Positions 46,100-48,745 of a stretch of DNA of 64,000 bases are shown here, one piece after another. How positions within the stretch are numbered: the stretch's first letter is position 1; every line of letters starts with the position of its first letter. This stretch comes from Vitis vinifera (lineage: Eukaryota > Streptophyta > Magnoliopsida > Vitales > Vitaceae), in NCBI RefSeq assembly GCF_030704535.1, contig NC_081810.1:4001501-4065500 (forward strand). The letters run 5' to 3'. The position numbers and the translations under genes were made by a program. The notes beneath the pieces were generated by a model that saw only the letters and a list, made by a program, of their open reading frames with translations, was not told the origin of the DNA and did not search any database.

Positions 46100-46406
46100 T
46101 CATTCTTTCTTTCCAATCCCATGAGCCATATTATAGATCCCTTGTGCCTGTGCAAAATGCATAACAACCATATCACAAAGAGGCACAGGAACTCGATCCA
46201 ATTTTGTTTATCAAGATTTGATGAAAAAACTGAAGTCAAAAGAGTCTTACAATAAGAGCTACAGAAGCAGCCGCCAGAGCAGCAGGAATGGCAACCGAGG
46301 TGATCTTGTCCATTCGTCCTTTCAGGTACGTGTGTTTATGGACCTGCTGGAAAAATCGTTGCTTCTCAAGGAGCTTCTCTCTTGGAACAAAAGGTGGTTC
46401 TGTCAT
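46100..46406 (-). CDS. Cytochrome c oxidase subunit 7a-like protein
   Basis: The product is a small accessory subunit of respiratory complex IV in the mitochondrial inner membrane. Exon 1 (46251-46406, 52 codons) and exon 2 (46100-46147, 15 codons plus stop) join in frame across a 103-base GT/AG intron. The protein has 67 residues. It starts MTEPPFVPREKLLEKQRFFQ, then QVHKHTYLKGRMDKITSVAI, PAALAAASVALIAQGIYNMA and HGIGKKE. This agrees with the Arabidopsis At4g21105-type COX VIIa-like protein as I remember it: a charged N-terminal part, one membrane helix (about residues 37-56) and a GIGKKE tail. No cleaved presequence is expected for this family. An AG acceptor (AATGCAG) lies one base before the ATG, suggesting a leader intron. 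Directly upstream on the same strand lies the orphan eEF1A promoter/leader at 47.9-48.7 kb. Confidence 0.9.
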
Positions 46407-47904
46407 ACTGCATTATGAGTTGAAATCTAAATAAAGGTCATCCAATATAAGCAAGCTTCTGGACCTAAATATGACTACAGCTGTCATTCAGTGTTTCATC
46501 ATGTTCAATTTTTTTCCTTTTTCCTTCTTGGGATTGGAATCCTGTCATGTTGGAATTTCTAAATCTTATTGTGGGGGAGATTCTTATTTGGGAATTCTTG
46601 TTTGACCAGCGATGAAGAATAAAGAAACAAGAATATAATGAAAATTATTTGACAACTCATACATCTTCAAATTCTTCATTCCTTATATCATGAAAACAAG
46701 AAGGGAGAAAATTTTATTGAGCATAAACATTTTTTATTTTCCTTCACTTCTCTCATTTTCTTTTTCCTTTTTATTTTCTTTTTCTAATCTTTCAAGCTAA
46801 ACTTTAGACAATTCAACAGAGTATAAAAGTGCTAGGATCTTCACTTCTGTAGAAATTCTAAATCCAAAAGCTTTGGACAAACTTGAACAAGGACACCCCT
46901 GTGGTTCCTCCTAGCCCATCAAATGGCCATTGGACCAAACAAAACAACACCCCCAAGTCCACAACAACAAAAAAAGAAAAGAAAAAAGAGTGAAGAAATA
47001 TATAAGCTGTGTAACATCGATGCTAGATGGATTGCAAAACCCTCTAGAAGTGGAAAATGGACTTTAGAAACTTCTCCAAAAGCTTAGCACCCATTATAGG
47101 AGCCAAAAACCCTCAAGTGTATACAGATAATAAGTAACTTGTTGGACAAAGTTATAAGTCGACCATATATACATGGTAAAATATGGTAACATTTACTATA
47201 ATATCCCTAAGCCATACCACAAAAAATTTAAAGAAATACTTTTTTGTATCACATGTGGACAAAAAAATTCACCATCAAGACAAAAGGGCTTGATCTTACA
47301 TACTTCCTCAAACCTTTATCCTCCATCTTGACATTAAGTAGAGGATCCATGTCCCTTCTCTGCCTACCTAGAAGAGCATGTGCATTGGGATACAAATTCC
47401 AGTAGATATTGGCTCGTGACCATTTGCTATGGTATAGTGTTTCTTGTATAAAAAGTTATTTCTAACTCTTCAAGTTGGTTGTTATCACCTTTGGAACCAA
47501 GGTTTTTACATCCTCCTCCGAGCTAGCATAATTGTAGGCCCTTGTGAAGACTCTTCCATGCTAGCCAGTTTCATCTCATCAAAGGGACTGCTACAAATCG
47601 AAGTTGGTGAGAAGTTCACTCTTCAAGGTGATTCTGGCTATAGCACATCATATGAATTTACTACGTACCAAAGTAGCACTAAACCTCCATACATAATCCC
47701 TTAAACCTTCTACGCCCACCATCTTAACAATAAACAAAGATACCATGCCTCTTCTCTGTTGAGAAAAGCACATGTACTGGGATAAAAACGCCATTCAAAG
47801 GTCAACAAATGATGCAACCCACCCACTTGGTAGGTTAAGAAACCGCATGAATGCAAGACCTTACTAACTCGGACAAAACACCTTACATAAGAGTGCATCA
47901 TTAC
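46407..47904 (-). other. Upstream region or putative leader intron of the COX7a-like gene
   Basis: No coding sequence was recognised. Two diverged direct repeats of about 90 bases lie at 47310-47402 and 47703-47794. A TATATA-containing stretch near 46998 could be an independent promoter for the COX7a-like gene. If the eEF1A-like leader exon at 48608 is used instead, this stretch forms most of a leader intron of about 2.2 kb. Confidence 0.4.
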
Positions 47905-48745
47905 CCTGTACACTACCATTGAGCTAAAAGGGCTATTTTGCAGTTTTATGGAACCAATGCTCAAACCTTGAGATGGTGTTTTTATGGTAACACAAAACAA
48001 AATAGAAATAGAAAAGTCATTAGAAAAAAAAAATTGAAGAAAGATAGGCAAGAAAATTTTGGCGTATCAAAATAGAAAGCCAAAAGGTCATGAAGATATC
48101 AAAGCATATTTTTACTTTTTTTTTTTCATAAAAATAACTGAAAACATAAATGTAAAAAGTCAATTTTATTTTACAAAGTTTTCTCAGAAGTCAGACAACC
48201 CATAATACAGATCAGAACAGGATCAACAACTAAATCCAATTGCCAACAATATATCTAGATTCAACAGGATTCATACACAAACTAAGAATGCCTCGCTCGA
48301 AGTAAAGCTTTTTAACATCCGATCTTGATTTTTTTGATCTGTAAAATTTTAAAAACTTTGCTTTCGAAGAAACAAAAATTAACATAACAATTGTATCCAA
48401 AACAGATCTGAATCACACGCAAAAGATCAAAAATAAATTTTTAAAAAACAACAAAACAAAGCAGAAACAAAAAGGCAACTCACGGAAACAACGGTGAAAG
48501 GAAAAATAATCAAATGAACACGTAAATAACAAATCTTACTGCAAAACCATCAAATCCAAATCGAAAGGAAAGCAAAATCGGAGAAAATTTCGAAGAACAG
48601 ATCGAACCTTAAGAAGGAGAAGAAATCGCGCTATAACCCTAGCCGCAGCGGAAGAAGATAGCAAGAGGTTAAGGTTCAGCTTTGAAAAAATGTTAAAAGA
48701 ACAAAGTCGACACCCGACAGAATATATATATATATATATACACGC
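47905..48745 (-). pseudogene. Orphan copy of the eEF1A promoter, leader exon and leader intron
   Basis: On the minus strand this stretch aligns with 33220-34130 of eEF1A copy 1 over some 800 bases, about 75-80 percent alike by eye. The shared blocks include the leader end (CTTCTTAAG|GTTCGAT, versus CTTCTAACG|GTTCGAT), GCTGCGGCTAGGGTT, CAGATCTGAATCACA and AACAATTGTATCCA. They also include AAAAGGGCTATTT from the tRNA-like pseudogene and CCTTGAGATGGTGTT. A TATATA run (48722-48740) sits where the TATA box belongs, and the donor is retained at 48608/48607. No eEF1A coding sequence follows; the next gene on this strand is the COX7a-like gene. It is either a dead eEF1A 5' fragment or a recruited promoter. 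Confidence 0.8.

Follow-up and report, generated by a model that had tools for sequence, protein, structure and literature searches.

Organization of the locus

The window described here is the whole 64,000-nucleotide stretch at C6:4001501-4065500 of a 21-contig, 495.6 Mb assembly. It carries two eEF1A copies in inverted orientation and a COX7a gene, and on the minus strand the order is eEF1A copy 1, COX7a and then, further upstream of COX7a, a segment related to the 5' end of eEF1A copy 1 that we refer to as the leader piece (Table 1).

Table 1. Features of the eEF1A and COX7a region; positions are those of the window
Feature	Position	Strand	Remarks
eEF1A copy 1 coding region	31058..32504	(-)	two exons, boundaries approximate
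eEF1A copy 1 counterpart of the leader piece	33235..34061	(-)	leader exon end, donor (34007), intron front
COX7a coding exon 2 with stop	46100..46147	(-)	
COX7a coding exon 1	46251..46406	(-)	ATG at 46406
Stretch common to the COX7a paralogue (C6:22.4 Mb)	46408..47286	(-)	three aligned blocks, K80 0.23
Single-copy filler	47287..47909	(-)	degenerate ~100 nt direct repeat inside
Plastid-type trnT(GGU) relic, 5' half	47901..47940	(-)	common to eEF1A copy 1; homology ends within
Leader intron, front half, eEF1A-type	47910..48607	(-)	begins at donor GTTCGATCTG; 7 GATC, 3 TTNGATYTG
Leader exon, 3' part, eEF1A-type	48608..48664	(-)	ATG-free; contains GCGGCTAGGGTTATAGC
(TA)n run, possible TATA element	48722..48740	(-)	homology to eEF1A copy 1 not detected
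Multicopy repeat just upstream of the leader piece	48770..50925	(-)	
eEF1A copy 2	about 59841-61270	(+)	

The COX7a gene encodes 67 residues and is placed in its family both by a profile match (PF02238, E 8.7e-15) and by a full-length alignment (E 1e-30) with a COX7a, chain 7jro_i, the one sequence listed and, according to the associated paper, from mung bean. The ATG is preceded by an acceptor-like TGCAG and one further base; the initial annotation had described an AG acceptor here, in front of a COX7a-like gene lying next on this strand. A paralogue with the same two coding exons is situated 18 Mb away at C6:22.416 Mb; it too has TGCAG one base before the ATG, and it differs from the window gene at eight of the 67 residues with a Ka/Ks of 0.24 (Fisher p 0.0026), which indicates purifying selection on COX7a in this pair. 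A further COX7a-like gene at C8:18.69 Mb (L045 5740-6040) is 47% identical in the matched part and has ATT in place of the ATG, and would be either a pseudogene or a gene with a different start. We also note that 669 nt close to the paralogue at 22.4 Mb (L042 1251-1903) resemble window positions 12678-13332 at 68%.

The inverted eEF1A copies are identical at 875/885 and 448/466 positions of their two coding exons, while their leaders and the intron between the exons are unrelated, at chance level (leaders z 1.0), and their 3' flanks are slightly similar (0/300 shuffles as good); the pattern suggests gene conversion limited to the exons. Copy 2 (58400-58700) and an eEF1A gene on C8 (L044 5600-5960) have a promoter and leader block, ATCCAACGGCTCARAGAGAAACCCTAA, in common that was not seen in the promoter of copy 1, so that the two C6 genes may go back to two more ancient eEF1A types. 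A plus-strand element at 39498-44221, judged Copia-like by eye from its reading frames, lies between COX7a and eEF1A copy 1 and has 191-nt direct terminal repeats that are 88% identical.

Origin of the leader piece and the sequence upstream of it

The best local alignment pairs the leader piece, 48664-47910, with eEF1A copy 1 at a score of 480, relative to 42.8 +/- 4.4 in 40 dinucleotide shuffles (z about 100), and has 75.0% identity in 693 aligned columns with a K80 of 0.304. In copy 1 it runs from the last part of the leader exon through the donor and ~770 nt into the leader intron. Divergence is spread fairly evenly (62-86% per 100 columns), and the exon and donor do not clearly stand out. 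The match had first been described as about 800 bases with promoter, leader exon, donor and intron; the leader exon end, the intron front and the donor at 48608/48607 all stand, the donor being intact as AAG/GTTCGATC, and the promoter falls away, similarity above 48664 being at chance. In the genome search the single full-length match to the leader piece is eEF1A copy 1, and the one other match besides itself is 50 nt on C7. Among the 56 matches listed to the eEF1A copy 1 stretch we examined copies 1 and 2, the C13 and C8 genes, the leader piece and the tRNA matches. A search of Rfam with the leader fragment gave four matches, every one far under the family cut-offs.

At the downstream end the homology extends about 9 nt more inside the trnT(GGU) relic (0/500 shuffles as good), which is whole in eEF1A copy 1 and represented by its first ~40 nt in the leader piece. 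The copy 1 relic is 83% identical to two organelle-like contigs of 770,000 and 132,500 bases, whose counterparts are read by ARAGORN as tRNA-Thr (ggt), and the insertion common to the leader piece and copy 1 is a good sign of their common descent. In the copy 1 leader intron this plastid trnT(GGU)-derived tRNA is complete and occupies 33187-33258, and ARAGORN assigns it the anticodon TCA. Beyond the relic, the possibility that the filler at 47909-47287 is leftover eEF1A intron was rejected (177/200 shuffles as good), and the filler matched neither the rest of the copy 1 intron nor the sequence upstream of the COX7a paralogue. Nor was any remnant of eEF1A coding sequence found in 44300-48664, where exons 2 and 3 do as well in 153/200 and 113/200 shuffles, in agreement with the earlier remark that none follows the leader piece. 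Relative to a plant eEF1A unit, the locus has the leader exon and the 5'UTR intron donor, and lacks both the downstream coding region and, upstream of the start, the full set of TEF1, TELO and TATA boxes.

The leader motif GCGRCTAGGGTTNTAGC has three exact matches in the 495.6 Mb, namely the copy 1 leader, the leader piece and the eEF1A gene on C13, and six more sites at one mismatch, relative to two sites at up to one mismatch for a reversed control; the pattern is a post hoc one, written from three leaders that had already been seen. Within the nine loci, taken as 3,017 nt each, eEF1A coding sequence was reached in that of C13 alone, a check that is blind beyond about 1.5 kb since the coding start of copy 1 itself falls just outside its stretch. 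Because the exact matches are two eEF1A leaders and the leader piece, eEF1A is the probable source. The reverse direction, in which the leader was originally that of COX7a and was taken by eEF1A copy 1, would fit the failure of the copy 1 leader to align with that of copy 2 (z 1.0), but in the C13 gene the same 17-mer motif is found after a TATA-like site and before the donor, the C8 eEF1A gene repeats the GTTCGRTT donor context, and no match to the motif lies near the COX7a paralogue, so that we give this direction hardly any credence. The first coding exon of copy 1 has Ks values of 1.07 and 0.88 relative to the C13 and C8 genes, whose leaders do not align with the copy 1 leader beyond weak stretches. 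With a K80 of 0.30, the leader copy is younger than the split from these genes, and the COX7a duplication (Ks 0.27; noncoding K80 0.14-0.23) is of similar age to the leader copy or younger.

Upstream of the leader piece, the sequence from 48665 to 48900 resembles the copy 1 promoter at chance level (87/200 shuffles as good). The same is true of the adjoining 100 nt (486/500), of a further promoter-homology test upstream of 48664 (58/200) and of the sequence beyond the upstream repeat (184/200). That repeat starts some 105 nt farther upstream than the leader-piece homology, is AT-rich with (TA)n flanks on both sides, and is multicopy, with at least 124 matches from 40 scored of 858 candidates (query 52700-48665). 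Its ends, inspected by eye in 10 fetched copies, look Helitron-like. Helitron capture of the leader fragment was rejected; the fragment was not found to lie between the termini of the element, and the best terminus-like site on the far side, at 47675, is equalled in 172/500 shuffles.

The TATA-like run, initially read as a retained copy 1 element, is a (TA)n stretch in which homology to TTTAAATAG of copy 1 was not detected, and the TATA match is at chance (135 and 36 of 200 shuffles). The best TEF1-like string sits inside the repeat (32/200 shuffles as good), and words near-identical to it recur in other copies of that repeat. The AAACCCTA-type element, also said to persist, does so within the leader exon as CTAGGGTT, but the sole exact AAACCCTA farther upstream in the 4.5 kb scanned is in the repeat, at about 49100. 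TEF1 was above chance in just one of four live eEF1A promoters, that of copy 1 (1/200), which makes the TEF1, TELO and TATA motif test a weak one, and the absent promoter homology is the stronger argument. Two features would fit joint capture of the eEF1A promoter and leader: the distance from the end of the TATA-like run down to CGCTGCGG is about 73 nt, similar to the roughly 65 nt for TTTAAATAG in copy 1, and the string TGAACCTTAA at 48678 is close to a TELO box at 9/10 positions (2/200 shuffles as good, in one of 28 motif tests). With no alignment above chance upstream of 48664, even though the adjoining leader is 75% identical, and with the TEF1-like string belonging to the repeat, we regard such a capture as very improbable.

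The 5' side of COX7a and the signals kept in the leader piece

The sequences upstream of the two COX7a genes align in three blocks up to window position 47286 (up to 880 nt), between which the paralogue carries an extra ~1.2 kb and ~0.2 kb. Beyond 47286 no similarity to the paralogue was detected, and the eEF1A-type leader is absent from it. In the 300 nt before the COX7a ATG there are 10 upstream ATGs in the window and eight in the paralogue, so the ATG is expected to be reached through splicing or a very short leader; by comparison there are none in 48721-48608. The aligned blocks contain no donor that scores at least 1 in both genes, although two weak donors, at 47217 and 46882, are above 0 in both, and the GT of a paralogue GTGAGT (L041 4523) has been lost in the window. 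The blocks have also diverged more (K80 0.23) than the intron between the coding exons and the 3' flank (K80 0.14).

Several elements within this stretch favor a proximal COX7a promoter. Site II elements (TGGGCY) are reported for COX gene promoters (PMC5877523), and there is a single one in the 4.5 kb upstream of the window gene, 512 nt from the ATG, for which no counterpart was found at the corresponding position of the paralogue. Both copies of the shared stretch have a TATA-like site, 765 nt upstream in the window and at 2060/2062 in the paralogue, and a TEF1-like 12/16 string lies at 47208 (3/200 shuffles as good, one of 28 tests). Together with the two weak donors, the missing eEF1A promoter, the repeat that abuts the leader piece and the survival of the paralogue without an eEF1A-type leader, these elements argue for a reading in which the leader piece is a dead relic, a decaying partial duplicate of copy 1 whose exon COX7a never uses, transcription of COX7a beginning instead at a promoter of its own no more than about 1 kb from 46.4 kb. 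We consider this rather unlikely, since at 25% divergence the piece has kept its donor, an ATG-free exon and six of seven GATC motifs, while the shared stretch lacks a donor of at least 1 in both copies, is the less conserved part of the noncoding sequence, and is devoid of GATC in the 447 nt from 47286 to 46840.

Candidate leaders were scored at each GT on the 60 nt before it (pyrimidine and GC content), the 300 nt after it (T-over-A skew, number of GATC), the absence of ATG, the fit to a donor matrix and a TATA-like site; the weights were set by hand, before the scan was run but after the locus had been seen. The known or expected donor ranked first in four of four eEF1A controls (34007, 58743, C13 6692 and C8 5994). 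Upstream of the window COX7a, donor 48607 is first of 244 GT sites with a score of 6.48, compared with 5.93 for live copy 1. Upstream of the paralogue the first of 338 sites is L041 8586, 5,989 nt from the ATG, which scores 4.04 with a weak donor (0.0), and the candidate at L041 4523 in the shared block scores 2.47. In a background of 206,000 strand-bases (both strands of the window minus its three leaders, with L042, L045, L066 and L067), three of 9,337 GT sites reach 4.04 and none reaches 5.3, so that a score of 4.04 is expected about 0.11 times per 7.3 kb by chance. If the leader some 6 kb upstream of the paralogue is real, the stretch common to both genes would be 5'UTR intron, and the two COX7a genes would differ in the upstream half of that intron.

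The 720 nt around this candidate paralogue leader resemble eEF1A copy 1, the leader piece and the C13 gene better than any of 60 shuffles; for copy 2, the C8 eEF1A gene and the C8 COX7a-like gene the equally good shuffles number 4, 2 and 2 of 60. Within the window the figures are 7/60 on the minus strand (best at 48572) and 0/60 on the plus strand, where the match at 50675 falls inside the repeat. We read these similarities as shared composition, because the shuffles are single-base ones of a T-rich sequence, with a distant relation to the other leaders possible. Similarity of 48665-48770 to the candidate paralogue leader was considered and set aside (53 and 56 of 500 shuffles as good in two scorings), and an old COX7a promoter therefore cannot be claimed there.

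The front of the leader intron is rich in signals that in other systems are associated with expression. GATC downstream of the transcription start site is described as raising expression, with an effect conserved in vascular plants (PMC11525189). The first 500 nt of the leader piece contain seven GATC motifs, equal to live copy 1, relative to a window mean of 1.51 per 500 nt; the densest 500-nt intervals in the 64 kb are the eEF1A copy 2 leader, followed by copy 1 and the leader piece with equal counts. Six of the seven are conserved between leader piece and copy 1, as opposed to 29-32% of all 4-mers (p 0.003-0.005), and GATC ranks first of the 46 4-mers with at least 10 occurrences, on which three aligner settings agree. 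When the copy 1 leader was decayed neutrally by 12.5% in 4,000 runs, the GT was kept in 75% and the exon stayed free of ATG in 67%, while a leader score of 6.48 was reached in 0.7%, a contrast that is overstated if the ancestor outscored today's copy 1. The survival of six or more GATC is likewise less unusual if copy 1 alone is constrained, the corresponding frequencies being 14.6%, 3.5% and 0.4% at 12.5%, 18% and 25% decay. Three of the nine minus-strand TTNGATYTG sites of the window fall within 50 nt of the leader-piece donor, and none of the three coincides with the single copy 1 site when positions are compared with the alignment. The signals kept in the leader piece are moderate, not decisive, evidence that it is used.

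A native leader inside the shared block, at first the favored reading, was weakened by the donor, GATC and leader-score results and is kept as a rival. COX7a could also have two promoters, a proximal start and the eEF1A-type leader as an alternative distal first exon in some tissues; this fits all of the anatomy, and the shared acceptor can serve either leader, but the proximal leader in such a scheme is backed by weak motif matches alone, and we judge it quite unlikely.

A proposed exchange of leader halves and its precedents

We lean toward an exchange of leader halves within the 5'UTR intron of COX7a, as opposed to promoter capture. Of the reading first put forward for this locus, the anatomy, the paralogue and the retained signals support the part in which the eEF1A leader end, donor and intron front form the upstream half of the COX7a 5'UTR intron, and promoter homology at chance and the repeat upstream do not bear out the capture of an eEF1A promoter. 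After the split from the C13 and C8 eEF1A genes, ~755 nt of the copy 1 unit were copied, with orientation kept, into a site 2.2 kb upstream of the COX7a coding region. The stretch common to both COX7a genes would be the acceptor half of the 5'UTR intron, which the paralogue would join to another leader about 6 kb upstream; the window gene would have lost the ancestral leader and would use the eEF1A-type exon and donor, joined from 48608 to 46407. The predicted start of transcription is near 48.70 kb, aided by the intron GATC and TTNGATYTG from downstream of the start site. Against the exchange are the absent promoter, the nearby repeat, the location of the site II element at 512 nt from the ATG and not near the leader piece, the even divergence of the piece, and the mismatch in position between its TTNGATYTG sites and that of copy 1. 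More tentatively, and with rather less confidence than we attach to the exchange itself, we suggest that a promoterless leader-intron fragment with GATC and TTNGATYTG signals established a new start next to a repeat and now forms the 5' end of a respiratory-chain gene.

If the leader piece is used, the leader of a highly expressed gene has supplied a new 5' end within a 5'UTR intron that was already present, with the promoter unmoved, and the locus would be a natural setting in which to test whether plant transcription starts are fixed by sequences downstream of them. The COX7a pair, one with an eEF1A-type leader and one with another, offers a ready comparison. Intron signals that act without a proximal promoter were reportedly described by Gallegos and Rose in 2017. 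Our literature searches on COX7a and grapevine gave no match, and those on precedents and background showed nothing on this arrangement among the entries inspected.

The closest precedent, by analogy, is the rice pair OsRpl6-1 and OsRpl6-2, with a 5'UTR acquired through a transposable element (PMC2631504). There, as proposed here, two paralogues for a mitochondrial protein have a 5'UTR intron at the same position, and their 5' noncoding sequences part from a point inside that intron (PMC2631504). At the grapevine locus the shared acceptor side with a difference upstream is found from 47286 down, in what would be an intron, and the upstream half is traceable to another source, eEF1A copy 1. The differences from the rice pair are that the foreign half is an eEF1A leader and not a transposon, that the gene is for a COX subunit, and that the case is known from its sequence alone.

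Three other systems resemble parts of the proposal. The cassava MeEF1A unit has a leader exon, donor, 5'UTR intron and enhancer-like intron front like those seen here, and differs in that its promoter block and eEF1A coding region are absent from this locus (PMC3880305). Expression of Arabidopsis COX5c depends on a 5'UTR intron, as cited from Curi et al. 2005 in PMC5216049, which is similar to what we propose for another COX subunit, although the COX5c introns are the genes' own, whereas here the upstream half would come from another gene. Introns with TTNGATYTG are described as acting without a proximal promoter and as able to shift the start site (PMC6760150), and here too the start could be set without the original promoter. 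Those reporters were engineered (PMC6760150), whereas the COX7a locus would be a natural, putative case and, if the proposal is true, a natural counterpart of reporters in which intron sequence, and not the proximal promoter, decides where transcription begins.
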